The notes under the pieces are model-generated. The model was not told the origin of the DNA, did no database searches, and saw only the letters and a program-made list of their open reading frames with translations. Both the position numbers and the translations under genes were made by a program. From assembly GCA_963281255.1 (NCBI GenBank), contig OY725500.1, positions 2,847,184 to 2,911,183 on the forward strand: DNA of 64,000 nt, in the 5' to 3' direction. This DNA is from Aphrocallistes beatrix (lineage: Eukaryota > Porifera > Hexactinellida > Sceptrulophora > Aphrocallistidae). Of this stretch, positions 851 to 62,815 are shown piece by piece (the stretch's first letter is position 1; each line of letters opens with the position of its first letter).

Positions 851-1305
851 CAAGCTCGCTTCACTTGCTTGCGCTACGCGGCTGGCGGACACAGTGTCCC
901 CTCCAGAGGCGTACTTCGTACGCCTAGGCTCACATTGATTAATTATAAGGTAGATAACATCTCTAAAGGGTCTGTCTTACTGTTAGATTCGATGTTACTG
1001 GAAAATCACCAAATTTATTAAATTTTCAATTTTTGGCTGAGTAATTATGAATTGATAAAGTCATAACAGAGTGATGAGTCCTCATTTTGTAATGATGGTT
1101 ATATCATATTTGAGATATATTATTATACACATTCTATTAAATTTTCAGCCTTCTATCACCTAAAATGGCTGAGTTATGGGCCGAAAAACTGAAATTTCTA
1201 AATTCAAAAAAGTGACAATGACGTCATAATTCATGATGAGTCAACATTTTCGTCTGATTCCCGCATACCAAAATTCACCTTTCTGTACAAACTTGCTCAG
1301 ATCTA
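851..1305 (-). mobile_element. Helitron-like repeat HLE, copy 1 (hairpin end present, start lost)
   Basis: This begins with the G+C-rich hairpin end (CAAGC...), followed by the conserved ATTGATTAATTATAAGG segment and the A+T-rich body. It decays near 1300, before the microsatellite. The hairpin arm AGGCGTAC-TTC-GTACGCCT pairs perfectly over 8 bp although its bases differ from other copies. Strand is given so that + runs from the CTTACTATTAAAACTCG start to the hairpin end. Confidence 0.75.
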
Positions 1306-2317
1306 GTGATGCCACTCGTTTCGTCCATAATGATTGAATAGAAGATGTGCTTCATCTTCTCACCACGTGATTCTGAATTATTCTCTAACAAAATTACAAA
1401 GTGCACTTTGTCCAAAGGTGCTTATGAGTTTTTTAAAATTTCGCGAGACGTGAATATAACAGCTCGATTATCAGTCATATATTCATTGACATTGGGATTG
1501 AATCTGAAATAATCATATTTCAAATATTATTATATTTTAGTTTTTGCAAATGCCTTTCAATGTAATGCCCCAGAGGTTTGCCAGAATCTTTTTCGTTGCT
1601 ATGCCCTCTTAGTGCAATGCATAGTTGTCCACAGAATCGTATCGAGTCGAATTTGCACTTAATGTGATACAATTCTTTTGTTGCTCGCTTATTAGTTATT
1701 GTCAATCAATACGTTATTTCGGGAACGATCTAATTCGACCTGTTGATATATGCTCTTAAAGCTTACTACTTGTATGAAATTTAAGTACAATTTATAATAA
1801 TTCGCGACTAACTTTTTTTTGCATACTGATGGACATTTGATCTTTGGCGTTTTTTATATAATGCTTTATCTTTTCGATAATCTGCCCATCCATCTTGCTC
1901 TAAAATATACTTACCTTAAATATATTGCTCATTCGGATTGTAATCCACAGTAGTACTACTAGTAGGTAACGACATTACTAAATATAAGGTGTGGTAGCCA
2001 ATTAGTAAGTTTGAATACTCAATGATTTTGATGTATTGAATATCGAAGCATATTATGATCAGATTCAAAAGCATTTTGATCCTCAAGTTGAAATTCCAAT
2101 GAATATATTCATAGGAGTGTCAATTCTTATAAGTACGTGAAATAAAGCTGAACTTCGAGACTCTCCATGATGCAAGTTTCCTTCTGCTCATTCGAAATTC
2201 AATTGGTAAAAATATGAGTTTTTATTCATTTTCTACATACCCATTTGTTGTTTAATAATTTATATTGAAATCCTAAAAGAGTGTTTAGTAACTCAAGCTA
2301 TCATTTTCTGCCTAGAT
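1306..2317. other. No recognised gene
   Basis: A+T-rich sequence with only short chance frames. The last part may belong to the decayed Tc1 element that is recognisable from 2318. Confidence 0.35.
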
Positions 2318-2590
2318 AGTTGGATCATACAAGAAGACAACGATCCAAAAGCACATTTCAAAATTTGCCAATGAATTCGAGGAAATAATGATATTAATAG
2401 AATGGATTTGCCAGCATGCAGTTCAGATCTTGGCCAGATCGAGAATCAGTGGTCCTGGATTAGGCGAGCTTGAAAGGGCACTGCTCGACGTATGGAAATC
2501 TCTAGAACAATATTTTTGGGCACATTTTGGCAGTCATAGCCAAAGCGCCTGAAATTATTATTGTCTATCAAGGGAAATATGAGCAATTAT
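2318..2590 (+). pseudogene. Tc1-type transposase, C-terminal remnant
   Basis: Translation from 2318 gives WIIQEDNDPKAHFKIC, a stop, then a degenerate SSDLGQIENQWSW. These align with the second and third catalytic blocks of Tc1 transposases (DN.P.H and SPDLNPIEN.W). Several stops and shifts make it a pseudogene. Its end abuts the TTAA where repeat R1 begins at 2595, so R1 lies in or directly beside the old Tc1 copy. The N-terminal helix-turn-helix part was not found upstream. Confidence 0.65.
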
Positions 2591-2594
2591 TAGT

Positions 2595-5069
2595 TTAAGG
2601 ATACCGCCCGCGAAAAGTCATTCGATTTGGCTTACAACATACGATGTAAGGAGAGCTAGAATAGATGTTAAGCGTGGGCACGTATCTCTTTCTAGAAATT
2701 ACTTAGGCATTCAAAACCGCTATTGATTCTCATTTCTAATTTTGTGATACAGTGTCTCAAAGCATGTTTGTTTCGTTTTTCGCTCGCGCATCCTAATGGT
2801 AGAGCTGCCACGCAATTATTTTTTAGGACATGCTAAGGAACCAATACTTACAAAATTGAAACATCGATAGTTTATCATATTTCCCACTACATCCTTACTA
2901 TTAAAACTTGATTAATGTTTGTATATATATACGTATATATGTATAATATATATATATCTCTGTAACAAATTGATTGAAGAAACTGCCTGGCGCAGAAAGC
3001 TGATTTTGGCATGTGGTAGTCTTTTGGATATGGCTCCAGTAGTTTCTTAGCTCAGACCAAAATGTCGACTCATCATGGAATTATGACGTCATTGTCACAT
3101 TTTAAAAAGTTAAGCAACACAGTTATTCGTGCATAACTCAGCCATTATTGGAGATAGAAGGCTGAAATTTTATTAGAATCTGTATACTAACAAGTCTCAC
3201 ATATGATGCAACTATCATCAAAAAATGATGACTCATCACTTTGCTATGACGTCATCATTACTAATCAAAAATTTTTAAATTGACAAATTTTGTGTTTTTT
3301 CGAGTGATATCGATTTTAAAACTAAGATGGACATATTTAGAGATGATATCTCCCTTTTAATTAACCAATGTCACCTCCAGGCGACCGAAGGGAGCCTCCG
3401 GCGAACACGAAGTGTTCGCCATCCGCGCAGCGCAAACAAGCGAAGCGCGCTTGTAGGACTAAAAGAAAGTTAAAATGTCAAAGATTGTAAATTGTATAAA
3501 GGACTGAATTAAAAGTAGAAAAACCCCGAAAAAGTTATGACATCGAAAATCGAGTGGTCCTACGTTCATCGCATAATGATATGGAACAAGTCTTGAAATT
3601 TCAAACCAATTTGGACCTTTCTTTTAAAGACGGTAAATTTTAAAGTCCCGAGATATAGAAATGTTCAAATGTTAAGAACAATGCAAAATGAATTATTAAG
3701 TATATATAAAATCATTCATGGGCATTTATTCGCGTTGATACTGATTATTTAGATATATTCCAATCAAACTTTGTGAAAATAGTAACAGTACAATGAAAAT
3801 CTACAAATTTCCTAGGCCCTTAACACCGAATATTTTGAGATAATTGTGAATATAATTCACACTCCTAGCACTACAAAGTATTTTCCGTTTGTTTAGAATG
3901 AATAAAGAGCTTCTAAAATGTATATTAGGAAGTGAGAACGAGAGTCTACGACTTTTAGTTTCCAAGTTAGGATTATCGAAAAATGCTGCGTCATCACATG
4001 ATAAAGATCTAAAACTAAAAATTCCATAGGATGTAGTAGTGCAACTTTTATCAATGAATCATATATATGCCGTTATAAAAATTATATTAGGAATTGTGAA
4101 CAAAGAATTTGTTCATATATTTACAGAGATAAATAAATCTTTTTGGACCCTAAATTTTGATTGAATCTGCGAGGTCCAAGGCCAGAACTTAAATAATCAT
4201 GAAAAGTGCTCCGATTGTTTAGTATAATGGCCACATTTGGACACATATTTAATGATTAGATTCGAAATTTTATAATATATTCAAAGTTCTCCTTAGATTT
4301 GAATTACAATGAAGTCAATGATAAGTCTAAAAATATTTATTTTTGACAAAGAGATGTTTGAGGAACCTATATATTATCGTATACTATATCTTTTCATTTA
4401 AGATACAAAGATTATACAACTTCAATAGTTTTTAAAATATGACATCGGCCTCTTTCGGGACCATAAAGAGGTATTATGCCCGAACTTTAACTACGTATAA
4501 TAAGCGATAACTCACGAACAAATGATCGAATCTAAACAATTTTTAAAAATTGATCAGAATTTTATTTATAATACAATTATCGCTACATAGTATCTGATAT
4601 CAAACCAGTCATTTCCCGAGCTTTTAAAAAAATGAACTCGCTTATAGAGCTATTTGGATTGCATTTTATTGACCTTTCTTCCAGATCTTTGTTATATAGG
4701 CCAAAGCAATGTTGAAGTCCATATCATTGAAAATATCAAATAATTTAAAAACTAATTGATGAGTGCGTCGAAAAAACTCGAATAATTTTCAATTTTTAGT
4801 AAAGCTAAACTTTAGGGGGTTAACCCTATATTATCGAAAACTCGCAATATCGCGGATGTCTCCATCCATTTTCAATGGGAAAGAAGCCATAAAGTTGTAC
4901 CACTGTTGTACATTTCGGTAGTCTTAGGTTAACTCATAAAAATTAAAATAAATACCGTCCAACTAGTACGATTAGATGGTAGACCACTCAGTGATACAAT
5001 GGAAATAACATTAAAAATTTTTGGCGTCATTTACGTCAGGCGAAATTTTTTCGTGGACAGTATCCTTAA
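2595..5069 (+). mobile_element. Family R element, copy 1 (TTAA-flanked, non-coding)
   Basis: Bounded by TTAAGGATACCGCCCGCG on the left and a degenerate inverse ending TATCCTTAA on the right. Without the HLE insertion at 2892-3455 the length is about 1.9 kb, matching the uninterrupted copy at 54878-56819. No transposase is encoded. The body is shared with copies at 10792, 18312, 31085, 54878 and 62830. Confidence 0.75.
2892..3455 (+). mobile_element. Helitron-like repeat HLE, copy 2, inserted in R1
   Basis: Near full-length: CCTTACTATTAAAACTTG start, TA-rich microsatellite, body with two TGACGTCA sites, and G+C-rich end finishing GCGAAGCGCGCTTG. R1 sequence resumes on the right, which places this insertion later than R1. 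Confidence 0.85.
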
Positions 5070-6147: not shown

Positions 6148-8311
6148 AGTCAGCCTACTGCATATAAGGCCTCACAGTAATTTGCGGATTTGGGACTAGG
6201 TATGAAGTAGAAGATGGTTAAATTAATACATAAGATGCCTTAAATCGAGGTGCCTGCATTTGTTAGAATTTTGAAGTTGTCAATTGTTAGAATTACCTCA
6301 ACTGCCACTTGTTAGGATCGTTTTTCTAGACTGCTGTCTTTTGTTAGAATCATTTTTCTAGAATACTGTCACTACTTGTTAGAATCGTTTTCTAGACTAA
6401 ACATAGAAATTTTAATGACTTCAGCTTGTAAATATTTGGAAACGAGTTTCGAATATTTTAACAAGTGACAGTAGTCTAGAGAACAATTATAACAAGTGAC
6501 ATTAGTCTAGAAAACGATTCTAACAAGTGATAGTAGTTTAGAAAAACGATTTTAACAAGTAATAGTAGTTTAGAAAAACGATTCTAACAAGTGACAGTAG
6601 CCTAGAAAACGATACTAACAAGTGACAGTAGTCTAGAAAAACGATTCTAACAAGTGACTGTAGTCTAGAAAAATGATTCTAACAAGTGACTGTAGTCTAG
6701 AAAACGATTCTAACAAGTGATAGTAGTTTAGAAAAACGATTCTAACAAGTGACAGTAGCCTAGAAAACGATACTAACAAGTGACAGTAGTCTAGAAAAAC
6801 GATTCTAACAAGTGACTGTAGTCTAGAAAAATGATTCTAATAAGTGACAGTAGTCTAGAAAACGATTCTAACAAGTAATAGTAGTTTAGAAAAACGATTT
6901 TAACAAGTGATAGTAGTTTAGAAAAACGATTCTAACAAGTGACTGTAGTCTAGAAAAATGATTCTAACAAGTGACTGTAGTCTAGAAAACGATTCTAACA
7001 AGTGATAGTAGTTTAGAAAAACTATTCTAACAAGTGACAGTAGCCTAGAAAACGATACTAACAAGTGACAGTAGTCTAGAAAAACGATTCTAACAAGTGA
7101 CTGTAGTCTAGAAAAATGATTCTAATAAGTGACAGTAGTCTAGAAAACGATTCTAACAAGTGATAGTAGTTTAGAAAAGCGATTTTAAAAAGTGATAGTA
7201 GTTTAGAAAAACTATTCTAACAAGTGACAGTAGTCTAGAAAAACTATTCTAACAAGTGACTGTAGTCTAGAAAACGATTCTAACAAGTGACAGTTGAGAT
7301 AATTCTAACAAATGACGCTCCCCCCTTAAATCATACCTAAGCACAATAGTGCTTAGGAATGTATTACCAGCATATATAAATAGTATGGTGTCAAAGTAAC
7401 CATATCCGCTGTTAAATTTAGATTAGTCACCATATGCTTGTGCAATAGGTTATATTTGTGACCAATTTAGTGATGTTCAGAGGCCGTTTAAGGGCACTTC
7501 TAAATGTTTTTATTATAATTTTTTTCGCATAGAATTGAGATGTGAGTGGGTTAATTAATGCAAAAATTTGGAATTTTTTCTTAGAATGCTGCTACATTCC
7601 AGTGTTAATATTGAAACGTGTTTGGTCAGTTAGGCCCATATCTTGAAAACCATAATAGCTAGACATTCAAATGTAATTCCATTTGATAGCAAATAGACTC
7701 TTTCCTATCAAGCGATAATAAATTTATTTGTCTAAATTCAATGGTTTACGAGTTTTTCAACAATTTATCATATTGGTCACATTTGGTAATTTGTCTAAAA
7801 ACTCGTAAACCTTGAATTTAGACGTCGAAATTATATTATCACTTAATAGTAAATAGTCTATCAAATAGAATTTCATTTAAATGTCTAGCTATTGTGGTTT
7901 TCAAGATATGATCCTAACTGACCAAAAGACGTTTCTATAGTAACACTGGATTGTAGCAGCATTCCCTCAAAATACTCCAAATTTTTCGTATTAACCCATT
8001 CACATCTCAATTCTATGCGAAAAAAATTATAATAAAGACATTTAGAAGTGCTCTAAAACGGCCTCTGATAATCACTAAATTATCAAAAATATACCTATTG
8101 TGCAATCATATGGTAACTTGTCTAAATTTTAACAACGGAGATGGGTACTTTGACACCATATTTATATATATGTACTAGTAATACATTCCTAAGATACATT
8201 GTGCTTTGTTAATGATTTAATGCAGCTCATGTATTAGTTCACCCATCTTCTACCGCATCCCTATCCCTAATTCCCTAAGTTACTGTGAGGCCTTATATGC
8301 AGTAGGCTATG
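6148..8311. mobile_element. Family F giant palindrome, copy 1, carrying a minisatellite
   Basis: The outer ends are inverse copies (GCCTACTGCATATAAGGCC on the left, its inverse on the right). The arms continue inward with matching segments, for example CAGAGGCCGTTT near 7480 and its inverse near 8060. The centre lies near 7780. Flanks ACAAAGT and ACAAGGT suggest a 7-bp target duplication with one mismatch. The left arm is interrupted by the 32-bp array at 6253-7315. Confidence 0.7.
6253..7315. repeat. Foldback element with 32-bp minisatellite array
   Basis: About 26 tandem units of roughly 32 bp (GATTCTAACAAGTGACAGTAG followed by TCTAGAAAAAC) run from about 6455 to 7290. A short inverted array of the same unit at 6265-6405 makes the whole block a foldback. 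Variants recur in the same order (a unit containing CAGTAGCCTAG at about 6595, 6752 and 7035), which shows that multi-unit blocks were duplicated. Confidence 0.85.
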
Positions 8312-8654
8312 ACAAGGTGTTTTGGCCAAATGAGGTGCATAAGACAATTATGACACCTTTTGCAATTGCAGATTTTTCTAAAACTTATCATTTTTTACAA
8401 ACTTAATTTGATAATTAATTATTCATTTCACACTATGTAATGCAAACAGATTTCTATTGTTCTGGATTTAACACTCGTTATCAAATGCAAGTGTGAGAAT
8501 GCATTTGTGAGATTCAGTATAATATTTAAATATCCTTTTTAATTCATAATTACACAACCAATATGAATGAGTTTAAACTTGAAACTATTCATAGAGAACC
8601 AAATGATATTACACTAGTATTAGAGAACTAAAAGATATTACACTACGTACTATT
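8312..8654. other. No recognised gene
   Basis: A+T-rich sequence. A segment containing GAGAACCAAATGATATTACAC is imperfectly repeated once at about 8595-8645. Nothing else is visible. Confidence 0.3.
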
Positions 8655-12180: not shown

Positions 12181-12260
12181 CAAGCGAGCTTTGCTTGCTT
12201 GCGCTGCGCGGCTTGCAGACAATGCGTGTCTGCAGATTTACCCAGTGGGGGCTTGCGGAT
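12181..12260 (-). mobile_element. HLE hairpin end only, inside R2
   Basis: Only the G+C-rich end survives. Its second hairpin reads TGCAGACA-ATGCG-TGTCTGCA: the 8-bp stem is intact but two base pairs differ from the usual GGCGGACA/TGTCCGCC. Sequence from 12261 to 12953 is unassigned. Confidence 0.6.
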
Positions 12261-25749: not shown

Positions 25750-26527
25750 CAAGCGCGCTTCGCTTTCTTGCGCTGCGCGGCTAGCGAACACTATGTCCGC
25801 CAGAGGTGCCCTGCGGGTGCCTAAGGTCACATTGATTAATTATAAGGTAGAAACATTATAAAAACGTCTATTCTACTGTTATAATCGATATCGCACGAAA
25901 AATCACCAAATTTGTCAATTTTTAAAATTTTGATGCGTAATGATGACGTCATAACAGAGTGATAAGTTATCATTTTTTGATGATAGTTGCATCATATGTG
26001 GGGTATATTAATCTACACATTCTATTAAAATTTCAACCTTCTATCACCTAAAATGGCCGAGTTTTACCCGGAATACTGAAATTACTAATTATAAAAAAGG
26101 TGGCAATGGCGTCATAATTCCATGATGAGTCGACATTATCGTCTGAGCTCAGAAATTAGTGGAGCCATAGCCAAAAGACACCCACATGCCAAAAATCAGC
26201 TTACAGTGCCTGGCAGTTTTTTCAATCAATTCGTTATATATATATATATATATACACACATACAGTCTGTAACTTAAAAATTGAGAAAATTGATACATTA
26301 TTATCAGCCCACATAAATATTAAAAAACTGTTATATGATTGATTCTACTCACATATATTACTCGAGATGTATTAAATAACGCATAATCTAGTTAGATCTT
26401 TTGACTATAGGATTTTTTTGTGCGAGAGTTACTGTCGAAAATATTTGTGACTTAATTTAATCGACTTTTTTTGATATTTCCACATTTATATTTTTTTTAA
26501 AATAAATGTATAGTGTTAGATCTAAAT

Positions 26528-29933: not shown

Positions 29934-30422
29934 CAAGCGCGCTTCGCGCTTGCTTGCGCTGCGCGGCTTGCGGACACTTTGTCCGCCGGAGGCTCCCTTC
30001 GGTCGCCTGGAGTCACATTGGTTAATTATAAGGGAGATAACATCTCTAAATATGTCTGTCCTACTGTGCTAATCGATATCACTCGAAAAATCACCAAATT
30101 TGTGAATTTAAAATTTTTTGATGCGTAATGATGACGTCATAACAAAGTGATGAGTCATCATTTTTTGATGATAGTTGCATCATATGTGAGATATGTTAGT
30201 ATACAGATTCTATTAAAATTTCAGCCTTCTATCTCCTATAATGGCTGAGTTATGCCCGAATAACTGTGTTGCTTAACTTTCAAAAATGTGACAATGACGT
30301 CATAATTCCATGATGAGTCGACATTTTCGTCTGAGCTCAGAACTTACTGGAGCCATAGCCAAAATACTCCCACATGCCAAAAATCAGCTTTCTGCGCCTG
30401 GCAGTTTCTTCAATCAATTCCT

Positions 30423-30500
<78 letters not shown>

Positions 30501-30530
30501 AATATTAATCGAGTTTTAATAGTAAGGATA
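29934..30530 (-). mobile_element. Helitron-like repeat HLE, copy 6, full length
   Basis: Complete from hairpin end (CAAGCGCGCTTCGCG) through both TGACGTCA sites to a long TA microsatellite (about 30426-30497) and the inverse start block ending TAGTAAGGATA. Confidence 0.9.
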
Positions 30531-30970
30531 TATAACGAATCGATTGAAGAAACTGCCAGGCACAGAAAGCTGATTTTTGGCATGTGGGAGTCTTTTGGCT
30601 TTGGCTCCACTACGTCATTGTCACCTTTTTATAATTTGAAATTTCAGTTTTTCGACCATAACCCGCCATTTTAGGTGATAGAAGGCTGAAATTTTATAGA
30701 ATGTGTATACTAGCATACCTCACATATGATACAACTATCATCAAAAAATGATGACTCATCACTGTTATGGCGTCATCATTACGCTTCATTTTTAAAATGG
30801 ACAATTTTTGTGATTTTTCGTGCGAAATCGTTTATAACAGTAAGACAGACGTATTTAGAGATGCTATCTCCTTTATAATTAATCAATGTGACTCCAGGCT
30901 CCTGCAGGGCGCCTCAAGCGGACACGTGTCCGTCAGCCGCGCAGCGCAACCAAGCGAAGCACGCTTGTGG
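30531..30970 (+). mobile_element. Helitron-like repeat HLE, copy 7
   Basis: Begins at TAACGAATCGATTGAAGAAAC without its start block and runs to the hairpin end CGAAGCACGCTTG. It is placed back to back with copy 6, so the pair forms a large inverted repeat. An internal deletion removed the first TGACGTCA area. Confidence 0.85.
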
Positions 30971-39677: not shown

Positions 39678-39692
39678 GTTGCAAATTTTATC

Positions 39693-41516
39693 ATGCCCAG
39701 CAATTGCTCTGCCCCTGGCTGTAGGAGTAACTATGATCAAGACGAGCATATTCCTGTATTCAAATTGACACAAACACCAGATCAACTTAGACATGCTTGG
39801 CTCAGAGTGCTCCATAAGGATGATATTGATAAGCTCAAGGTAGTATACGTTTGCGTGAAGCACTTTAGAGATGAAGATGTTGAATATTTCCACAGAGTAC
39901 CGAATGGATACGGGAGTTTTCGGGAAATTCCGCGAAGCAAACTGAAACTGAAAGAAGGTAAGGTGCTATCCTCTATCCTGCCAGGATGTCCATCATATTA
40001 TTCCTCACACTCCGCTACCAAACCCAGTCGTCTGTCTCGTGACTCTAAGGATGATGAACTGTTCAATCAAGCTTTAACGCTCAGTCTGAGGTCTGAAAAT
40101 GAAGAGATTGAAAGGTTCGTGGTTAAAAGCTACCTGGATTTACAAGATAAGTTACCCTCTCTATCTATTCCTAAAACTTGGTCACTTTGGTACCCAGATG
40201 AGCGTACTTTAAGTTTTATGCGTCCTAATTTAGAAAATTGTAAAATTCTTGTGGATGTCTACTTATTGGTAGAATTTGATTAACAATAAAAGCCTATCGT
40301 AGGGGTGAAAATGTTCCCATCTCCCAATTTTTTCTGAGGGATACCCGACAACTCGAATTGATCCTGGATAAAATTTCTAGTCCACTATATAGTATAGCAG
40401 TACCCACACTAAGAATACCGTTACCGATTCTTCTAACGCGTCTCATATTGCTTCCGCAGAAATCCATATACAACACATCATTGATAACATCCATGATTCC
40501 GTTTCAGATGACGAATTGCATGATTGTCCCGAAGTTTCTATGCTCCAATTCATTCTATGTCAGCTTCAAAATAGCCTTGTACCGAAAAACTGGCAGAGAT
40601 ATAACATACTGACGCAAATATTGGCCCTCAAAGCACATCTGTTTTCGCCTGCTTGCTACAAGTATCTTCAGAGCATGTCTTCTTTATCTCTCCCACATTT
40701 CAATACTTTTAGAAAAATTGTATTCGCCCTTTGGGCTTGAAAATGATTTTCTTAGCAAGCTACCAAATCGTTTTCTCCTGAGCAGAAGCATGTTATTATC
40801 CAAATGGATGAAATACATGTCAAATCAGATATCTCTTACAAAGGAGGCAAAGTGTTAGGTTCTAATCTCGATCCCGATGATCCTACCAAAACTGTATTCG
40901 CTATCATGGTGTCTAGCCTTTATAAGAAATGGTCTTGTATTGTCCGTCTATTGCCTTGCGCTTTTGTATCAGCTGAAAAGATATTTGACATTATCCGCTC
41001 TTGTATTTAAGATGTGGAACATTGCGGGTGATTCGTTCATATCATCTCTACCGACAACTTTCCACTTAATGTGAAACTTTTCAAATTATTTTCGCCCATT
41101 TGTAAACTGGAGACCCGAGTACCCCATCCTTGTGATATATTATCTCAGTTCAAGCTACTAGATCTCTCCGATCGAAGTTTGAAGTAGTTTGCCCTAGAAT
41201 CTATCGCTACTGCTTGGAAGATTTTTGTTAGCATCGAAAACGATAACGAAATGATGGCATTGTTAGTAGAAGTACCATCCAGGAATATCCTTGTCGATCT
41301 ATCAATGAATTATATTTTGGATGCCGATGTCTGTGATTCATGGATAAATGTATGCCCGTTTTATGTTGTGAGTGGTTGTCATATCCTCCGCAAAATTCTA
41401 TTTTATTTAAATAAAGTAAAAAATTATAATTCGATGGTTATTTCTAGAGGAATGGAGAAGCGAAGGTTGAAAAATTCCAATAATACGTATTTTAGTCTAT
41501 CAATGATTGTAGTATA
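39693..41516 (+). pseudogene. P-element-type (THAP9-like) transposase, decayed
   Basis: The first 196 codons are open. The THAP zinc finger occupies residues 1-75 with the C2CH ligands in NCSAPGCRSNY and VYVCVKHFRDEDVEYFH. LSIPKTWSLWYPDERTLSFM follows. After a stop, frames continue with FLRDTRQLELILDKISSP, the Trp-rich NWQRYNILTQILALKAHLF and the RNase H-like core: MDEIHVKSDISYKGGKVLGS (first Asp) and, near 41030, HIISTDNFPLNVKLF (second Asp). These are hallmarks of P-element/THAP9 transposases. At least four lesions separate the blocks. A Tc1 derivative cuts in at 41517, and the C-terminal catalytic region was not found beyond it. Confidence 0.85.
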
Positions 41517-44157: not shown

Positions 44158-44655
44158 CAAGCGCGCTTCGCTTGCTTGCGTTGCGCGGTTGGCGGACACT
44201 TTGTGTCCACTGGAGGCGCCCTTTGGGCGCCTGTGGTCACATTTATTAATTATAAGGGAGATAACATCTCTAAATACGTCTGTCTTACTGTTATAATCGA
44301 TATCGCACGAAAAATCAGCAAGTTTGTCAATTTTTAAAATTCTGATGCGTAATGATGACGTCATTACAGAATGATGAGTCATAATTTTTTGATGATAGTT
44401 GTATCATATTTGAAAAATATTAATATACATATTCTATTAAAATTTCTGTCTTCTGTCGCTTAAAATGGCTGAGTTATGGTCGATAAACTAAAATTTCTAA
44501 TTATAAAAAAGGTGACAATGACGTCATAATTCTATGATGTGTCATCATTTTCGTCTGAGCTCAGAACTTCCTGGAGCCATAGCCAAAAGACTCCCACATG
44601 CTAAAAATCATCTTTCTGTGCCTAGCAGTTTCTTCAATCAATTAATTACAGATAT
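44158..44655 (-). mobile_element. Helitron-like repeat HLE, copy 8
   Basis: Full hairpin end (AGGCGCCC-TTT-GGGCGCCT stem perfect), body with both TGACGTCA sites, up to TTCAATCAATTAATTACAGA. The start block is replaced by the opposite-strand copy at 44657. Confidence 0.85.
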
Positions 44656-45062: not shown

Positions 45063-47952
45063 CAGTAGCGGATTTAGGAGTGTGCGGAGTGTGCGGCCGC
45101 ACAGGGCCCCCACAAATTGACATAAATTATTTGCACTTGTTTTTCTAATGAAATACTCTCACTAATATGAATATTGTATGCAGCAAATCTCATTTTTCAT
45201 TTTCATTTCAAAATTTTACCCAACGTAATGATACAAATAAATATATAAAGGCTATCTGTTGAATTATTAGATCATTCGTAATTTGTATATTACTTTTTTA
45301 ATGAATTAGACTCATTACTACATTACTACATGAGGCTGCATAGTGATCGACATAAATTCGTGCGAAAATACAGTAGTGGGGCATCAAAACGGAAAGCCGC
45401 CAGGGAGAAATCGATTCGACAGGAAGCTGAACAGAAGAAAAATAAATGCATCACATCAATTTTTTCTTCACAAAAAAAGGATCTGCTTATTAGGATCTGC
45501 TTAGGATCTGCTTATACCACTGAACGATCTAAGTATTGATGATATCGCCAATCCGGCAGATTTTGTTGGTGTGATTGGAGTCGCTCCTTTAGATGGATTT
45601 GGATATGATATTGGATTATGGCCAGGTAAAGCAACGAACATGATGATCGACTATTGGGCAATCAGGTCGAGCGAAGAAATATTGAAATTACAGAATTATG
45701 GGGGTGAATTCGATAAGTCAGAAACTCAGTTGACATCAGGACTTAAAAACGAAATAAGATGATGTACTAAGGCAATTTTTAGTCGACGAGCTCAGAATGG
45801 TGAGATTATCCATCGTTCTTGGCTGTGCTATTCTCCTGCCGTTGGTCGTGTATACTGTTACATATGCAAGCTCATGGCTGGAGATGAGCAACAACTATCG
45901 GGAGAAGGGTACTGTGACTGGGGTCATGCTGGTGAACGTCTTGCTAAACACGAACTGTCACTACGTCATACTGCAAACACAATTAGTCTGGTTCAGAGGG
46001 GGAATGTCCTAGATAGGATCGATGTTGAACAACAGAAACATCTAGAAGATATGTGCAACTACTGGCGGGATATCCTGAAGAGGTGTGTCAGCGTGACAAG
46101 ATTAATTGCTGAGCGTGGCTTAGCATTTCGGGGAGCAAATGAAATTGTTGGATCGTCAAAAAACGGAAATTTCCTGGGTATTTTAGAACTGATCGCTGAG
46201 TATGACAAGTTTTTAGCGGAGCATATCAGTTTACATACGAACAAAGGCAGTGGTCACACCAACTATCTGTCATCAACTGTATATGAAGAATTAATAGAAA
46301 TCATGGGGAAAGCGACATTGAAGGTCATAGTTGATTGTGTCAAACGTAGCAAGTATTATTCTGTTTCAGTAGATTCTACACCTGATATCGCTCATGTTGA
46401 TCAACTGACAGTCATATTGCGTTACATTGAAGTCGACGAGCCAGTTGAACGATTCATAACGTTTCTTGATAAACGTGGTCACACGGGGCAGAAAATGGCT
46501 GATTCGCTTCTGAACGTACTGGCGGAAAACGGAATAAATTTTGGTGATTGTTGTGGTCAATCTTACGATAATGCGTCGAATATGAGTGGTAGATATAACG
46601 GAATGCAAGCAATATTACGAGAGAGAAATAGCCTAGCTGTTTTTATTCCATGTTCCAGCCACTCACTGAATTTAGTGGGTCAGGCTGCAGTGGATTCCTG
46701 TAGATCTGCTGTCGCATTTTTCGATTTTGTACAGGAGCTTTATACATTTTTCACTGCATCCACTTCGCGTTATGAACTTCTCAACACCAAGTTAGCTGAG
46801 AAGAAACTGCCAGTACCAAAAAGATTAATCAACATCCGTTGGTCAGCCCACGCAGATGCTGTCAAAGCAGTATTCAAAGGGTATAGAGTGATAATGGAGG
46901 TACTGAACGAAATTGCAGAAGATAGGAATGAGAAGGGAAACGTTTGCAATACTGCTACTGGTTTGCACAAGCAAATGTGTCGTCTAGAGACAGGGATATT
47001 TACCGAGTGCTGGAATGTTATCCTGGAGCGATTAAATGCTACGAACATACAGCTCCAAAATCCTAAAATGGACTTGAATACCTCAGTGCACCTTTTGAAA
47101 TCTCTCAAAGTATTTATTGAATCTCTGCGAAGCGAATTCGATAGATTTGAGGAAGGAGGAAAGTGTCTGACTGGTATATTTCACTATCATGAAGAAGTAG
47201 GTCGAAAAAGGCGAAAGAATGTTCGATTGACACCACTCGGTGATACTCTTATTGATGAGGATGCTGTGATGGGTAAGGATAAATTCAGACTAGATAGCTT
47301 TTTTCCCCTGATTGACATGTTACTCTCGGCTCTCCAAACACGAGTGTCTGCATACAGCGAAGTCTCACAAAAATTTGGCTTTCTCAGCAAATTAGAATCC
47401 TTGAATGAGAAAGAAATTCGCCGCCATTCACTAAATCTAGTAGGAGCATATGCTGATGATCTAGAAGATAGTCTTGCTGAGGAACTAATACAATTTCGAT
47501 CCCTTCTAATATCATCTGTTGAATTGTTTGATAATGATCAAGCATGCAGTAATGAGCTCAATATGTACAAGGCTATAATAAACAAGCGTCTCAAAAGTAC
47601 ATTTCCTAATGTTGAAATAATGCTACGAATATATCTCAGCCTCATGATTTCAAACGCAACTGGAGAACGATCATTCTCCAAGTTGAAACTTATAAAGAAC
47701 AACTTACGATCAACCATGGGTCAGAACCGACTTGTATCATTGTCTTTAATGAGTATCGAATGCGATATAATGCGTTCAATTGACTTTTCTGACATTATTA
47801 ATGAATTTGCACGCAGAAAAGCACGCAGAGTGCATTTATAGTGGAATAAATGTACCTTTTAATATATTTATATTTTATGACTATTTTATTAGATGCCAGG
47901 GCCCCCACAATCGCACTCGCACAGGGCCCCCACATTCCTAAATCCGGCACTG
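45063..47952 (+). mobile_element. hAT element (ZMYM1/DUF4371 type), nearly intact
   Basis: Ends CAGTAGCGGATTTAGGAGTG and the inverse of CAGTGCCGGATTTAGGAATG. The 8-bp flanks are CACACACA on both sides, inside the HLE microsatellite, so the duplication is consistent but not unique evidence. The transposase is described next. Confidence 0.85.
45330..47841 (+). pseudogene. hAT transposase with TTF-type zinc finger, two lesions
   Basis: From ATG 45330 the N-terminus is Lys/Arg-rich (KFVRKYSSGASKRKAAREKS). A triplicated 11-mer GGATCTGCTTA at about 45479-45511 shifts the frame. The correct frame resumes with PLNDLSIDDIANPADF, meets one TGA at 45760-45762, and is then open to 47841. The TTF-type finger is at 45781-45870 (RSWLCYSPAVGRVYCYICKL). 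The hAT core shows the first Asp in YYSVSVDSTPD, the second in GQSYDNASNMSG, the conserved NIRWSAH Trp, and the C-terminal dimerisation block with Glu in NATGERSFSKLKLIKNNLR. This is the ZMYM1-like, DUF4371-containing group. An AATAAA follows the stop. The core alone is a 655-codon frame from ATG 45874. Confidence 0.9.
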
Positions 47953-48124: not shown

Positions 48125-48345
48125 GAAATCAAAAATTATGCATAATTGTCGACAATTATGAATAATTGTTCATTTCACAACAATTATGCCTAATTATTCA
48201 TCTAATACGACAATTATGCATAATTGTTCATTTCACAACAATTATGCATAATTGTTCATCTAATACGACAATTATGCATAATTGTTCATCTAATACGACA
48301 ATTATGCAAAATTGTTCATCTAATGCGACAATAATGCATATTTCT
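48125..48345. repeat. Minisatellite of about 30 bp, each unit a perfect dyad
   Basis: About seven units of ACAATTATGCATAATTGT plus a spacer alternating between TCATTTC and TCATCTAATACG. CAATTATGCATAATTG is itself a 16-bp perfect palindrome. Single units recur at 48855 and 51245-51320. Confidence 0.85.
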
Positions 48346-51379: not shown

Positions 51380-51887
51380 TATACGTATATATATATATAT
51401 CCCAGTAACGAATTGATTGAATAAACTGCCAGTCACAGAAAGCTGATTTTTGGCATGTGGGGGCCTTTTGGCTATGAGCCCACTAAGTTCTGAGCTCAGA
51501 CGAAAATATCGACTCATCATGGAATTATGACGTCATTGTCACCTTTTTTAATTAGAATTACCAGTTTTCCGACTATAACTCAGTCATTTTAGGTGATAGA
51601 AGGCTGGAATTTTAATAGAATATGTATTTTTATATACCTCACATATGATGCAACAATCATCAAAAATGAAGACTCATCACTCTGCTATGCCGTCATTATT
51701 ATGCGTCGAAATTTAAAAAATTGATTTGGTGATTTTTGGAACGATATCGATTATAACAGTAGGAAAGACGTATTTAGAGATGTTATCACCCTTATAATTA
51801 ATCAATGTGACTCCAGGCGACCGAAGGGAGCCTCCGGCGGACACAGTGTCCGCCAGCCGCGCAGCGCAAGCAAGCGAAGCGCGCTTG
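51331..51887 (+). mobile_element. Helitron-like repeat HLE, copy 10
   Basis: Long TA microsatellite, body with the TGACGTCATTG site, and intact hairpin end (GGCGGACA-CAG-TGTCCGCC stem perfect). The start block is lost. First of three in tandem. Confidence 0.85.
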
Positions 51888-52432
51888 TCGTTACTATTAA
51901 AACTCGATTAATGTTTGTGTAGTATATATTTATATATATACGTATATATATCTGTAACGAATTGATTGAAGAAACTGCAAGGCGCAGAAAGCTGTTTTTT
52001 GGTATGTGGGAGCTATGGCTCCACTAAGTTCTGACCTTAGATTAAAATGTCGAATCATCATGGAATTATGACGTCATTGTCACCTTTTTATAAGCAAATT
52101 TCAGTTTTTTCGACCATAACTCAGCTGTTTTAAGTGATAGAAGGCTGAAATTTAATAGAATGTGTATTATAATATATCTCACATATGATACAACTCTAAA
52201 CCAAATATGATCACTCATCACTCCGCTATGATGTCATCATTACTCATCAGAATTTAAAAAATTGACAAATTTCGTGATTATTCGTGCGATATCGATTATT
52301 ATAGTAGCACAGACTTATTTAGAGATGTTATCTCCCTTATAAGTTATCAATGTGACCCTAGCCGCCCGAAGGGCGACTCTGGCGGACACAGTGTCCGCCA
52401 GTCGTGCAGCAAAAGCATGCGAAGCGCGCTTG
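51888..52432 (+). mobile_element. Helitron-like repeat HLE, copy 11, full length
   Basis: From TTACTATTAAAACTCGATTA to GCGAAGCGCGCTTG, directly after copy 10 and directly before copy 12. Confidence 0.9.
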
Positions 52433-52483
52433 ACCTTACTATTAAAACTCGATTAATCTATCATCTATCCATCTATCTATCTA

Positions 52484-53780
52484 CAGTTTGTTCATAATTA
52501 TTGGTACTATTTTTAAACGATTTACTGATTATATGTTGTTGATTGGTTAGTGATTAATTAAATGTAAATTTTAAAAAAAGAAAAAACGTTTATGAGACAA
52601 ATTAATAGTTGATCTTCTATCCTTTGCTTTGGATGCAAAGTTTCAATCTTTTAGCCATGGTAAATACAAAATTCCTGAGAAAATCTGAGGTAAAAGTCTC
52701 CCACTCTCTCACTATGGCATCTTTTAATTCAAACAAATTGGCGAAGTGAACAATGTTTCTGTCGGACTTCCATGCTTTACTGAGGCTTGAAGTGTGAATT
52801 GGAGAGTTATCCTCCTGTAGTACCCTGCCTTCAGGATAGAAAATATCAGCAATTTCTAGCAGGCATTCATCTAGAGTATCAATGTAACGACCGGAGTTAA
52901 AATTTCCTTCGAAAACCTTCAAAATAGTTGTTCCGCGAGCCGAAATGCCTCCCCAGATGCGAATCTTAGGTGTGTGTTGGGGGATTTTCTGAATTGTAGT
53001 TTGTGTTCCCTTGGTCCAGAATCGAGAACAATTCCGGTTTAACCAAACTGAGCACTCGTCTGTGAATATTACTGTTTCCCAATCCTGTTTAAGATTATTT
53101 TTAGCCCAAACAACTCTCTTTTCGGCAGTTAAAGGTGTGATGAATGGCCCTTGGTATGTTTCCTCGATCTGAAACCGGATTTTCGAATAGTCTTATAAAC
53201 AGTAGTAGTCGAAGGTGCATTGGGATGAGTAGCTGCTAATTTCCCTCTCAAATTACGAATAGACATCGTCGTTGAGCGTTTTAGAGTTGTAAATAAGGAT
53301 TGTTTCTGCCGAAAAGTGATAGTCGAAGGTCGACCTGCTCCCTGTTTATGCTCAAGTGAATTATTCTCACGAATAAGTTTCAAAGTGCGAAAAACAGTAA
53401 TTCTAGGGATGTCTGTTCTTCGGCAAATTTCTACCGGATATGTTATTATAGGTCAAAAAGGGTTTTAATAACATCCCTACGATCTTTTTGAGTCATTTAG
53501 TTACTAATTCATTGAAAGAAGCAAGAATTGTTAATTTTAAAACGAAATATAAAATAAAAATAGGCTGTAAAAAGAACATCGAAAAACGGTAGCCGCCTCT
53601 CTCTATTTTGGATGCAAACTCGAAAATACGGATTATTTAGAAGTAATTTGCAGCTTAGTGCGATAAAAGGAAGTAAAATAACTTCCTAAACTATTTATGG
53701 GTGAATCGTAACACTGTTGAAGAAATGCATAAAGAAATGATCTATTTCCTATGTAGTACCAATAATTATGAAACAGACTG
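52484..53780 (-). mobile_element. Tc1 element in HLE microsatellite
   Basis: Ends CAGTTTGTTCATAATTATTG and the inverse of CAGTCTGTTTCATAATTATT, flanked by TA (52482-52483 and 53781-53782). Confidence 0.9.
52617..53496 (-). pseudogene. Tc1-type transposase missing the Glu block
   Basis: The start MTQKDRRDVIKTLF at 53496 is followed by early stops. The next open part gives VFRTLKLIRENNSLEHKQ and the hinge GAGRPSTITFRQK, then helix-turn-helix STTTVYKTIRKSGF. After a shift, RVVWAKNNLKQDWETVIF leads into TDECSVWL, the first catalytic Asp block, and KIRIWGGISARGT. The C-terminal part has LQEDNSPIHTSSLSKAW with the second Asp, but then runs straight into FANLFELKDAIVREWETF; the SPDLNPIEN block with the catalytic Glu appears to have been deleted. 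The order of blocks is typical of Tc1, and the ends are well kept. Confidence 0.85.
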
Positions 53781-54278
53781 TATATGTAACGAATTGATTG
53801 AAGAAACTGCAAGGCACAGAAAGCTGCTTTTTGGCATGTGGGAATCTTTTGACGATGGTTCAACTAAGTTCTCCGCTCAGACGAAAATATCGAACCATCA
53901 TGGAATTATGACGTCATTGTCACCTTTTTTATAAGGAAATTTCAGTTTTTCGACCATAACTCAGCTGTTTTAAGTGATAGATGGCTGAAATTTAATATAA
54001 TGTGTATATTAATATATCCCACATATGAAATAACTATCATCAAAAAATGATAACTCATCACTCTGTTATGACGTCATCATTACACATCAAAAATTTTTTT
54101 AAAAATTGACAAATTTGGTGATTTTTGTGCGATATCGATTATAACAGTAGGACAAACATATTTAGAGAAGTTATCCCCGTTTTAATTTATCAATGTGACC
54201 CCAGGCGGCCAAAGGGCGCCTCCCGTGGACATCACTTGTCCGCCAGCCGCGCAGCGCAATCAAGCGAAGCGCGCTTGT

Positions 54279-57941: not shown

Positions 57942-60900
57942 TTAACTAATGTCAACAAGATAACTTTCACACATGTCAATGCAAACTCCAGTTAAATTAT
58001 CACAAAGTAAGGGGAGTTTAGTGAAATGTTGAATAGATTCTTGAGAAAACGTTGTTTTATGATCAAGTGAATTATTTTCAATTGTGACCAACATTTTTAA
58101 GAACAAAACTAAATTTTTTGATATTTCACTGATTGCTAAAAAATGCTTTAGATTATTGGAGTTCATCTTGCTACGCGAGGTGCGGTAGCAGAGTGATCTA
58201 ACACCTTGCAACAACTCCTGTAATTCAAATGCTGAGCATCGATATCCATCCAATAGTTTAGTTATTGATTCAAATATTCTAATATAATCCAGAAAAATTG
58301 AACCTTCAATTTCCCAATGTTCTATAAGATTCATTCGTCCAGCGCATTCAATTTGTCTTATTTTATCTTTTATTACTTCAAATTCTCCATTAATTATACA
58401 TGGACACACAATATGGCGAATTATTGACTCGTGAGCAAGATGGGGTTGTTCAGCTTGAATAGAGAAATCGGAATATAAAATATAATTCTTGTAATATAAA
58501 GCCAAATTAGATTTCGCGCAAAAGAGCAGGCTTTGGGTAAAATGCAATTCATTTGAAATAAACTGCTCCCTCTTGCTCAGGTTTTTGGAAACAGTGCAAT
58601 ATGCCTCAATCATATTATTTAATGCCGCGAATTTTTGAGCTGAAGGAGGTAAAAATAACATTACATAGAGTCCCCAATGCCATTGATCGGTCATAAAGAG
58701 TTGGTTTGCAAAATTCATTATTATGTTGGATCTTTGTAGAGCAGAAGTGTGTTCGAATTGGAATAATGATAATAATACATGAAAGGCTAAAGAATAATCT
58801 AGGAATAAATGCGAATAGCTAGCGACATTCAAAACTTTGGAAAATGGATAATCAATGAAAGCATTAGAAATTAAACTATAAAATAAATCTGGAGTTGAAG
58901 ATTTTCTAGGTAATAGAATATTTTTACAATGTAATGATCCAGGATATGGAAAATAACCACGGTGGTGTAACTCGTTGAAGGACAATAGAGAATTCGAAAT
59001 ATCAGAATTAGGAGATTGAGTGAACCATAACAAAAGAGAAAATGATTGAAACCATGTTAAATGAAGAAATATATTCCAGGCATTCCTCGAAAATAAATGT
59101 TCGAATTCCCCAGAAAGAATACAATAAATAACAAAACGAATTGGAGAAATATAGCGAAAAGCTTCATTAGATAACCAACTGAAAATTTGTTGAGAAATAA
59201 ACAATTTATATTTTGAGGATTTATTTGTCAAAGATTGGCTAATTGCATTACTAAGTTGGTAATCATTGTTATTTAAAGCCAGGCAACATGCACTATGAAG
59301 ATTTCCTTTAGTCAGCTCATAAAAAATTTCAAATAAATAATCGCCTTCCAATAAGTCGAATTTAAAATCGGCACGTTTATGAAGTTGCGACAGCCAGGTA
59401 CTGAAATTATCGTAAAGTTTGACATGAAGTGAGTATGCCATATTATTACAACATCTCTTTGAAAGTATTATCAATAATAATTCCCAAATTGAATCATCAT
59501 TAATTTGATAAGTGGAAGGAGAAGCTATTTGAAGTCTTTTATACAAATTTAAACTATCATAATAAGAAAATAAATCAATTAAATCAGAATGCTCATTTAA
59601 AGCAGCAAATACATGAGAATATGTAAACTGGTATAAAGTATCGAAAAAAATCTCGAGTGAGATAGTATTAAATAAAGTAAAATGTCTTTTATGTTCTTCA
59701 GAAAACTTGATTATTGAGACAGAAAAGGAAGATTGAGAAGTTTTAATATTGTTTGGGAGGGCAATAGTGGATATTAAAGAATTGCTCCAACCAACACGAA
59801 AACTACGATTAATATAAAGTGTTGAATCGGCAATATTGTGTAAACAAATATCCAAAAAAGATTCTTGTTTTGGCAAAATAACCAATGGATGTGATAAATC
59901 AATATTTGGAATGTTCCAATCAAGACTACAAATTGAAAGTTTTTCTGGAATACAATGGCCACCATCATTAAAGCTCAATAGATTATCACTATTTTGTCTG
60001 AAAAAATTGTTTCGATTAGTATGAAGGGGTATACAAACATTTTTTATGTTTAATTTATCCAAAGATTCTGTTTTTGAAAAAAGAATATCCATCTGAAAAG
60101 GGTCATTTGAAATGGCATTTAATGAATTAGATAAAGGAACGCCTCCAAATGTAGTATCATTTGTCTGTTTCGAATGTCCATAACATTGATTTGAATCTTT
60201 AGATTGGAAATTTTTATCAATCACATCAAAACTCTTCTTGTGTATTTTTTTTTCAGATTTCTTTTTGTCAGATTTATCAAATTCTTCGCTATCATCACTC
60301 GATTCTGAAACATCTAATTTGAATTTAGAGAAATGTAGGACTTTAAATTTCCAAACTCCACCTTCAGGATCATAATCAATAAACTGAGCTCCTAACTTTT
60401 CAGTGCTTCTCTCTACTTTTTCGTAATAACGAAGAGTCAATATTTTTGAAGGATCAGTTATGGCTTCTCTAGTAGTTTTGCAGATTGGCCATACTTCAGT
60501 AAGAGAAATATATGCTTCTTTATTCAATTTTTGTCCAAGAATGGGTTTGTTTTTCTCATTGGGATATACTGAGACTTCTTTACGTTCTATAAAAACGTTT
60601 TCATCTATATTCAAGCCTGTGATATCTGTAACACCTGGGTAAAATATTTGCCCATACCCATGGCGAAATATTGTAAAATTTGATATAATTAACTTGTTAT
60701 CGGGAGAAATAAGTTTAGTGATTTCTAGGCAAGTAGGTGAAGTATAATAATCTGCTCGTTTCAGCGTTAACAATTCATGTTCAATATGAAATTCATCTAT
60801 TAATGCAGTATCAAGTCGAGAAGGTTGGTTGATTGCAGATAATGCAATATCATCTGCTGAGGAATCTTCGGTATCAATTTCAACACTCTTCGTGATGGAT

Positions 60901-62609
60901 CGACAAGATAAATCGATAACTTCAGGATTATACTCCGTGCAAGAAGATAAATCAAAATTGGGATTCTCAATAGATACCATCGATTGTACTGCCTTGTTGC
61001 TCAAGTCCAGTTGTTTGACCGATATTTTACGAGATACCAAGACTTTATCATCTTGATTTTTTTGTGTTTGATATTTCTCGTCTATTTCGTTTAGGAATGT
61101 ATTGCTCAGGCTTGAACTTTCTTTTGGAAGCAATGGAATAGTCTGGAAATTCATTTTGAAAATATTGCTGGGAGGTGTTGGCTTAATCTTTAAATGTGAT
61201 GATTGTTCATTTAAATTTTTAAATGAATGCTTTTTTTTATCTAAGGGACTAACAGATTCAACTGTTTGTCTTGCATCTTTAAAAAGTGGAGAATCTCCAA
61301 AAGGGGTTCGAGCCAAAAAAAGTAATTGTCGCTCAAGGATAAGAGGTGATTCATTCATTACTTCAGGGTATGAACCAATTGGATTGGTAGGTAAAAAAAT
61401 TGGCGCCTGAGAATTTAATCCAGAAATTTGAGGGCCAATTGTTGAGTTAGCGGATTTACGAAACGATAAATCTAGAGCACGAGGGGGATACATGCCTAAT
61501 TGAGAGGATTGTGAAGGAGGTATATGTGAACCAACATTAACATTGGATGGTTGTAGCTGGAAAAGCCCAGATGGCCTTGCAAATTGATTTGCCCCTATAC
61601 TAAAATTAGAATGCCCATTTCCAACGCCGAAATTAGATTTGGTTGCAAAAGAAGAAGAGGATGAATTAGATAAGAAAAGGCCAGGTGTATTTTGTTGTGT
61701 CGAGTTAACCGTTGGGAACATACTACTATATTGTTGAGGATTAGGAGGATTAAAAATATTCGAACTTTGTGTATACACAATATTAGGGAACAAGGAATTA
61801 GAAGAATTTACAAAAGATTTGGCATTCTGTGATACTTGAGCAAAAAGTGGTGGTTGAATTTTTGGGGTGAATAAATTGCTACTTTGTGATGTAGGATTTG
61901 GGGAAAAGATGTTAGAACTAGATGCAGAACCAAAGAGACCCCTATTATTCAAATTATTCGCTGATATATTAGAAAAAATCCCAGAATTAGGAGCCTGGCT
62001 TTGAATAGACAAATTAGAATTTCCTTTTCTTCCTGATATATAATCTTCATACCTTAATTCTTCCAAACTTTTATTTTCATATTCTTTCATTGCTGGAATG
62101 CATTCTAACCTAACTTGAACGTTAATTTGTGTGCCACCTTTCATTACTGTGTCCTGAGATTGCACAGCTCTGAATGGAATAGGAGTCCCAGGTCCAGTTA
62201 CATTGCTAAAGATTGAGGGTGTTTGATGAAATACTCCATTAGTTTGAGAACTGGTTCCAAGAGTCGGAATTTTGGATTGATTGGAAAAAAACCCAGAATT
62301 CCCTAAAGAAGGGAACGAACTAGATGAAATACTAGGGGAAAACGTATTTACAGAATTAAATATATCCCCACGTGATGCATTATTAAAAAATGAATTGGAT
62401 GCAGTAGTTGAAAAGGCCGAGGAAAAGAAAGAGTTTCCTACTCCAACAGTAGTGGATGCCAAGGAATTAGTAAAGGAATTATTATTTCCTGAGCCAGAAC
62501 TAAATATTCCACGTGATACTGGCAATGCGAACGGAGCTGAAATTTGATTGTGGCCAAAGAGGGATTGTGAGGAATTTGGAACATTGGTACTAGTATTAGC
62601 GCCAAACAT
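57942..62609 (-). CDS. NUP98: Nucleoporin NUP98-NUP96 precursor
   Basis: One exon of 1,555 codons. I start at the ATG 62609 (MFGANTST); the codon before it is TTG. The precursor cuts itself to give Nup98, a mobile FG nucleoporin, and Nup96, a scaffold subunit of the Y-complex. Residues 1-600 are low-complexity, rich in Ser, Asn and Phe, but have only about five FG dipeptides and one GLFG. The GLEBS motif (binding site of the export factor Rae1/Gle2) is at about 153-197 with CIPAMKEYENKSLEELRYED. The autopeptidase domain spans about 615-765 (YYTSPTCLEITKLI, HGYGQIFYPGVTDITGL, EVWPICKTTREAI) and ends in the cleavage site HF|S near 759-761. After an acidic, Lys-rich linker, about 850-1555 is the Nup96 alpha-solenoid (FEIFYELTKGNLHSACCLAL). 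It is a little shorter than the human precursor (about 1,800). Confidence 0.95.
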   Translation of the reverse strand: MFGANTSTNVPNSSQSLFGHNQISAPFALPVSRGIFSSGSGNNNSFTNSLASTTVGVGNSFFSSAFSTTASNSFFNNASRGDIFNSVNTFSPSISSSSFPSLGNSGFFSNQSKIPTLGTSSQTNGVFHQTPSIFSNVTGPGTPIPFRAVQSQDTVMKGGTQINVQVRLECIPAMKEYENKSLEELRYEDYISGRKGNSNLSIQSQAPNSGIFSNISANNLNNRGLFGSASSSNIFSPNPTSQSSNLFTPKIQPPLFAQVSQNAKSFVNSSNSLFPNIVYTQSSNIFNPPNPQQYSSMFPTVNSTQQNTPGLFLSNSSSSSFATKSNFGVGNGHSNFSIGANQFARPSGLFQLQPSNVNVGSHIPPSQSSQLGMYPPRALDLSFRKSANSTIGPQISGLNSQAPIFLPTNPIGSYPEVMNESPLILERQLLFLARTPFGDSPLFKDARQTVESVSPLDKKKHSFKNLNEQSSHLKIKPTPPSNIFKMNFQTIPLLPKESSSLSNTFLNEIDEKYQTQKNQDDKVLVSRKISVKQLDLSNKAVQSMVSIENPNFDLSSCTEYNPEVIDLSCRSITKSVEIDTEDSSADDIALSAINQPSRLDTALIDEFHIEHELLTLKRADYYTSPTCLEITKLISPDNKLIISNFTIFRHGYGQIFYPGVTDITGLNIDENVFIERKEVSVYPNEKNKPILGQKLNKEAYISLTEVWPICKTTREAITDPSKILTLRYYEKVERSTEKLGAQFIDYDPEGGVWKFKVLHFSKFKLDVSESSDDSEEFDKSDKKKSEKKIHKKSFDVIDKNFQSKDSNQCYGHSKQTNDTTFGGVPLSNSLNAISNDPFQMDILFSKTESLDKLNIKNVCIPLHTNRNNFFRQNSDNLLSFNDGGHCIPEKLSICSLDWNIPNIDLSHPLVILPKQESFLDICLHNIADSTLYINRSFRVGWSNSLISTIALPNNIKTSQSSFSVSIIKFSEEHKRHFTLFNTISLEIFFDTLYQFTYSHVFAALNEHSDLIDLFSYYDSLNLYKRLQIASPSTYQINDDSIWELLLIILSKRCCNNMAYSLHVKLYDNFSTWLSQLHKRADFKFDLLEGDYLFEIFYELTKGNLHSACCLALNNNDYQLSNAISQSLTNKSSKYKLFISQQIFSWLSNEAFRYISPIRFVIYCILSGEFEHLFSRNAWNIFLHLTWFQSFSLLLWFTQSPNSDISNSLLSFNELHHRGYFPYPGSLHCKNILLPRKSSTPDLFYSLISNAFIDYPFSKVLNVASYSHLFLDYSLAFHVLLSLFQFEHTSALQRSNIIMNFANQLFMTDQWHWGLYVMLFLPPSAQKFAALNNMIEAYCTVSKNLSKREQFISNELHFTQSLLFCAKSNLALYYKNYILYSDFSIQAEQPHLAHESIIRHIVCPCIINGEFEVIKDKIRQIECAGRMNLIEHWEIEGSIFLDYIRIFESITKLLDGYRCSAFELQELLQGVRSLCYRTSRSKMNSNNLKHFLAISEISKNLVLFLKMLVTIENNSLDHKTTFSQESIQHFTKLPLLCDNLTGVCIDMCESYLVDIS

Positions 62610-62687
62610 CAAAATAAATTTCGAAATATTAGCAAAAACAAAATATGAAATAATCTAGAACAAAAAATAAAAGCATTATTATGGGCA
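62610..62687 (-). promoter_or_regulatory. Short leader of NUP98 next to an HLE end
   Basis: Seventy-eight A+T-rich bases separate the NUP98 ATG from the hairpin end of an HLE copy. No TATA-like element can be singled out. Promoter function is inferred only from position. Confidence 0.3.
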
Positions 62688-62815
62688 CAAGCGCGATTCG
62701 CTTGCTTGCGCTTCGCAGCTAGCAGACATTTGAAGAATTCAGCTGGCAGAATTCATCTAAGGCGACACTTGGGCGCCTACATTGATTAATTATAAAGTAG
62801 ATAACATCTTTACCC
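62688..62815 (-). mobile_element. HLE hairpin end upstream of NUP98
   Basis: CAAGCGCGATTCGCTTGCTTG to CATTGATTAATTATAAAG, then truncated. The second hairpin is disrupted by inserted sequence. Confidence 0.75.

Follow-up and report, generated by a model that had tools for sequence, protein, structure and literature searches.

Hairpin ends of a Helitron-like element in the sponge Aphrocallistes beatrix: matching arm changes probably reflect decay of copies more than general compensation

Do matching changes in the two arms of a hairpin, seen between copies of a repeat, mean that selection keeps its stems paired? This question is raised by a stretch of 64,000 nucleotides from the sponge Aphrocallistes beatrix (GenBank assembly GCA_963281255.1, contig OY725500.1, positions 2,847,184 to 2,911,183; hereafter the window). 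A first-pass annotation had reported about eleven copies of a repeat whose G+C-rich end carries up to three hairpins, and had proposed that compensatory base changes keep the stems paired, so that a folded single strand or an RNA would be what matters, as for the terminal hairpin in rolling-circle transposition. All eleven copies could be located (Table 1), with the CAAGC end on the plus strand in six and on the minus strand in five. The observation was partly confirmed and the interpretation partly supported: the setting was right, and what had been taken as a sign of selection on pairing was largely ordinary decay, save at one pair of one stem. We consider it probable (roughly 0.8) that these are decaying copies of a Helitron-like element, whose apparent covariation comes from differences between sequence types, chance hits and fold-back copying, not from general compensation.

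The window repeat is an abundant short non-autonomous Helitron-like element. We refer to the strand that starts with CAAGC as F and to its complement, which ends in CTTG-3' and is the element sense, as R. Canonical Helitrons (Helitron1) start with TC after a host A, end in CTRR with a hairpin 10-12 nucleotides (nt) from the 3' end, have neither target duplications nor terminal inverted repeats, and carry RepHel in autonomous copies. The element is about 520-560 base pairs (bp) long, 13 of 21 spans with both ends measuring 524-560 bp (two copies were counted twice in overlapping loci). In scans of loci for both ends, which allowed substitutions only, it started with TC in 30 of 36 distinct 5'-end matches and was preceded by a host A in 32, as in canonical Helitrons. 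The 3' end was exactly CTTG in 48 of 62 distinct matches, a host T following in 58, in agreement with a wider definition that admits CTRR or CTTG before a host T. By-eye inspection of 21 rows revealed no target duplications or terminal inverted repeats. Head-to-tail junctions with zero bases between the copies were found at three distinct places (window 51887/51888 and 52432/52433, and locus L026), and a further 5'-end remnant, ACCTTACTATTAAA, directly follows copy 52432. The core of the element end had 7,769 matches with at most two mismatches in the 100.5-Mb genome, and its reversed control had none. We call the element Helitron-like and non-autonomous because it begins with TC and ends in CTTG, is flanked by A and T, forms head-to-tail junctions and did not show its 3' end in the parts read of any RepHel locus.

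Comparable ends have been published for other Helitrons, which are cited here and below from excerpts of the papers. Helraiser/Helibat of bats shares the 5'-TC, the A/T insertion site and a terminator hairpin near the 3' end (PMC4778049), whereas it has one 19-bp palindrome 11 nt from CTAG and the window element has up to three hairpins and a CTTG end. HELPO2, a Helitron of Pleurotus, likewise combines a CTTG 3' end with a subterminal hairpin (PMC4289320), but is fungal and protein-coding; the likeness is one of description. GAA-triloop hairpins are a feature of FoHeli/Helitron2 (PMC5148889), whose termini are of another kind and whose terminal inverted repeats are asymmetric; inspection of the window element revealed neither. 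Some insertions of Helraiser vectors have CTTG ends.

The Helitron replication-initiator domain PF14214 had 106 matches in the genome, several of which can be fragments of a single gene. Some of the frames with this domain run on to a GTGKT motif, which we take to be helicase-like. Four RepHel 3' regions and loci L039-L062 were scanned for both element ends; they yielded no 3' end and a single exact 5'-end match (L051), on the strand opposite its RepHel domain. Three RepHel elements (L059, L060 and L062) were 97.8-99.4% alike across about 3.4 kilobases (kb), with a 3' minisatellite; they form a young lineage without the 3' end of the window repeat in the 4 kb read.

On the CTTG strand, the last 80 or so bases could form up to three hairpins: H3 (arms AGGCGCCC/GGGCGCCT), H2 (arms GGCGGACAC/GTGTCCGCC) and the terminal hairpin, H1 (CGCGC..CGC/GCG..GCGCG). 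Five copies were folded on both strands with DNA parameters and compared with shuffled sequences by z score. The terminal hairpin stopped 0-4 nt short of the CTTG end in three of the five (44158, 51887 and 3453), and copies 851 and 12181 folded differently near this end. Folding was far better than in shuffles for copy 44158 (z -5.6 on one strand and -5.9 on the other), well beyond them for copy 3453 (-3.9 and -3.3) and moderate for copies 51887 and 851 (-2.3 to -2.8), and copy 12181 hardly beat its shuffles (-1.3 and -2.2). Perfect stems were present in 41 of 130 copies for H2 and in 24 of 112 for H3, counts that include a few misaligned rows. A small palindrome, GAGAT-AAC-ATCTC, also lies inside the repeat, just past H3 on F (for example, window 44258-44270).

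The copies analyzed for covariation came from three sources: the window, search loci (the core, which lies within the terminal hairpin, had served to pick some of these) and 160 further loci, 159 of them picked by the flank on the far side of H3 and the other one by the core. The 191 hits gave 187 distinct copies, of which 182 could be parsed, 104 were gap-free and 98 were distinct after filters. Dropping the rows judged misaligned (L112, L103, L215 and L216, one of which was within the 98) left 97 rows, which were used for the shuffle null; such rows stay within the stem, pair-state and wobble counts (H2, n=130; H3, n=112) and the loop counts. Two-sided complementary changes were absent from H1 (0.59 expected for its short form and 1.63 for its long form) and numbered 3 in H2 (3.28 expected) and 13 in H3 (4.74 expected), and 9 of those in H3 were at pair 6 (2.71 expected). 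Thus, apart from this one pair, changes on both arms were no commoner than chance would give, and the proposal that compensation keeps the pairing was mostly not borne out. It should be noted that the shuffle null is blind to relatedness, so that this test favours the covariation claim; even so, H1 and H2 gave null results. Under a tree null, in which substitutions were moved on a FastTree tree of the 98 rows (23 pairs, p values uncorrected), the covariation score had p 0.01 at H3 pair 6 and p >0.1 at the other 22 pairs. Covarying pairs were therefore found not in every stem but at 1 of 23 pairs, with H1 and H2 at chance; covariation in these two stems was rejected, both by the two-sided changes under the shuffle null and by the covariation score under the tree null. 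A search of the open-access literature found no report of covariation in Helitron palindromes.

At H3 pair 6, which is not a CpG site, the 112 copies included 51 with C-G, 8 with T-A and both one-sided intermediates, T.G (7) and C.A (8). Seven of the 8 T-A rows among the 98 carry an AGGC tail; the one remaining row of the nine with two-sided changes has G-C (L099).

The individual arms cited in support of compensation are all present. Copy 851 has AGGCGTAC/GTACGCCT where copy 44158 has the H3 arms given above, but it is one pair away from a GTCC/GGAC type, and copy L011_300 has the left arm without the matching right one. Copy 12181 does carry TGCAGACA/TGTCTGCA; its outer T-A pair may be a chance match because the copy loses its likeness to the family directly past the hairpin. 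The wobbles of copy 25750 (AGGTGCCC/GGGTGCCT) could also be confirmed, but both are C-to-T changes at the CpG of each arm. Accordingly, the comparison with a rolling-circle terminal hairpin stands as far as the Helitron-like nature of the element and the position of the hairpins at its 3' end are concerned, whereas the covariation evidence offered for it does not.

Arms matched within a single copy, which the first-pass annotation had itself named as speaking against its claim, do occur: 3 of the 187 scanned copies look like fold-back products. In L218, perfect 30-base arms correspond to neighbouring element sequence copied backwards; in L114, the terminal quasi-palindrome has been made into a perfect one of 15 bases; and L100 is a third case, of 13 bases. 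Judged by their arms, these copies are best read as products of single-strand fold-back copying at hairpins, which would mean that single strands do fold into these hairpins and that matching arms can arise without selection. The H2 loop AAA, the reverse complement of TTT, was found in 8 of 130 copies and in 4 among the 100 perfect stems listed (TAT and TTA in one each); on a poorly resolved tree it requires two changes for six tips.

The sequence types also differ in H3. Divergence from the own consensus in the H1 and H2 region was 4.1% for the type with the mismatched H3 AGGCTCCCTTCGGTCGCCT (26 rows), 7.8% for the C-G type (49) and 10.2% for the T-A type (8); by this measure, the type with AGGCTCCCTTCGGTCGCCT is the youngest. 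It has two adjacent H3 mismatches on F, which read as tandem G.A on R, and it makes up 26 of the 98 sample rows and 62 among 100 rows listed, all from contig C1 (51 with the exact string). In addition, H3 was shortened in 12 of 182 copies (35-base class) and lost or fused with H2 in 14 (26-base class). H3 is called tolerant because the least diverged type is mismatched twice there and other copies lack it. On the other hand, the H2 consensus was identical across the four H3 types compared.

On R, the loops were purine-N-A in 103 of 112 copies for H3 and 108 of 130 for H2, with GNA in 56 of 112 and 14 of 130, respectively; no GNA loop occurred on F. In DNA, triloops of the form GNA have been described as extraordinarily stable (PMC4686876). 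It is conceivable, though improbable, that selection on the CTTG-ending DNA strand favours DNA-specific folds. The youngest type would then have traded two Watson-Crick pairs of H3 for tandem G.A beside a C-GAA-G triloop, and pairing would be kept by non-Watson-Crick changes, invisible to ordinary covariation tests. Since loop states are inherited by lineages, the loop evidence is suggestive only.

We propose that a RepHel protein would move the element by rolling-circle transfer and that, by analogy with Helraiser, the hairpins may mark where this enzyme stops and cuts. Each copy, once inserted, decays independently, which breaks the stems. Apparent covariation would be the C-G/T-A difference at one H3 pair, lying mostly between sequence types, and the remainder could represent a few chance double hits, partly at CpG, together with rare cases of template switching by fold-back at the hairpins.

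Several results weigh against this reading. The literal CTRR rule fails, since the end is CTTG; this is tempered by the CTTG ends published for HELPO2 and some Helraiser-vector insertions. No protein-coding partner sharing these ends turned up; the 3' end of the element was absent from the 24 RepHel loci read, each of which covers only part of its element. Without pair 6, H3 still had 4 two-sided changes (1.90 expected under the shuffle null, p 0.11). The T-A state at pair 6 needs five changes for eight tips on the poorly resolved tree, so that compensation may have recurred at this pair. Counts of paired cells exceeded the tree null in H2 (754 vs 634, p 0.0075) and H3 (630 vs 476, reached by none of 400 nulls; for H1, 513 vs 439, p 0.10); this measure is distrusted because the null shifts tip changes to deeper branches, from which they spread over many tips. 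Genome-wide counts at H2 pair 4, with all other stem bases required at consensus, were 2,270 G-C, 205 A.C (224 less 19), 109 G.T and 19 A-T. The A-T copies exceeded the 11.0 expected under independence (odds ratio 1.93, Fisher p 0.015, ignoring shared descent), an excess that is weak and slight at most; four of them, all on contig C2 and alike in having a TTC loop, could have arisen by local duplication. As 314 of the 333 changed copies have one-sided breaks, breakage dominates. The 205:109 imbalance between A.C on F (G.T on R) and the other wobble (p 7e-8, again ignoring shared descent) could come from selection, strand-biased mutation or shared descent. TTC loops were present in 31 of 90 listed A.C rows and 22 of 100 listed G-C rows, so a single amplified lineage accounts for it only in part.

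A general wobble asymmetry that would mark one strand was rejected, the two wobbles occurring in 93 and 82 cells across H2 and H3 (p 0.45; H2 alone, 62 vs 46, p 0.15). Over the terminal 33 bases, C-to-T changes (0.039) were as common as G-to-A changes (0.040). Without an overall strand preference, the data favour neither strand, and neither DNA nor RNA, as what folds.

Other explanations have to be weighed against this decay of copies. It is possible but doubtful that, without selection, most compensated arms were made by quasi-palindrome correction, in which a single strand folds back and switches template. The new arms of the three fold-back copies, being reverse copies of adjacent element sequence, and the change of the H2 loop from TTT to AAA point in this direction; however, compensated pairs are too scarce to require a special source, the AAA loop may be inherited in view of its few changes, and L011_300 is a one-sided form of the 851 change. 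It appears rather unlikely that selection on the folded single strand in transposition keeps the pairing while decay of dead copies masks it. Such selection would be consistent with H3 pair 6 and its one-sided intermediates, the constant H2 consensus, the distrusted paired-cell counts and experiments on Helraiser, in which the hairpin near the 3' end is the published terminator: without it, efficiency fell and non-canonical events rose, about 90% of activity was retained when the stem was swapped and the loop left as it was, and loop change or deletion reduced activity (PMC4778049). This work is summarised elsewhere as a small effect on colony-forming activity (PMC6544945), a weaker view. Against such selection stand the youngest type with its mismatched H3, the lack of covariation in H1 and H2 even under the permissive shuffle and the copies without H3. 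A function of the hairpins as RNA, for example within a transcript, is very improbable: the stems do fold as single strands (with DNA parameters), but G.T shows no strand excess over A.C.

Thousands of copies thus provide a natural test of which bases of a Helitron terminator matter, and suggest that H3 tolerates mismatch or loss and that H2 stays constant in consensus between types. In dead copies of a transposon, a few changes that match between the arms are weak evidence of selection, because decay and fold-back copying also yield them.

Table 1. Copies of the Helitron-like element in the window; strand is that of the element sense (5'-TC to CTTG-3')
Copy	Position	Strand	Remarks
851	851..945	-	Hairpin 3' end
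3453	2892..3453	+	562 bp from TC to CTTG; A-T replaces G-C at H2 pair 5; hairpin end at 3358-3453
12181	12181..12236	-	Partial hairpin end; family similarity ends after H2
25750	25750..25842	-	Hairpin 3' end
29934	29934..30528	-	Both ends present, about 595 bp in all; H3 of the mismatched type; hairpin end at 29934-30028
30967	30876..30967	+	Hairpin 3' end
44158	44158..44252	-	Hairpin 3' end; H3 perfect
51887	51795..51887	+	Hairpin 3' end; CTTG adjoins TC of next copy
52432	51888..52432	+	Tandem neighbour of 51887; 545 bp from TC to CTTG
54277	54183..54277	+	Hairpin 3' end
62688	62688..62778	-	Degenerate hairpin 3' end, with H2 and H3 separated by an insertion; approximate end

The window also contains frames for Nup98-96 (long; 57942-62654, minus strand), a dynactin p62 exon (22838-24202, plus strand) and a THAP domain (39651-40283, plus strand). 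A frame for a hAT-like transposase and stretches of Tc1/mariner-like DDE_3 lie at 45763-47841, 26755-27501, 38409-38900 and 52617-53192, two of the three DDE_3 matches being slightly below the Pfam cut-off. Tandem arrays were found at 6455-7294 (32-base unit), 36224-36705 (16/17) and 48150-48340 (30/58), the last of which is built around the palindrome ACAATTATGCATAATTGT.

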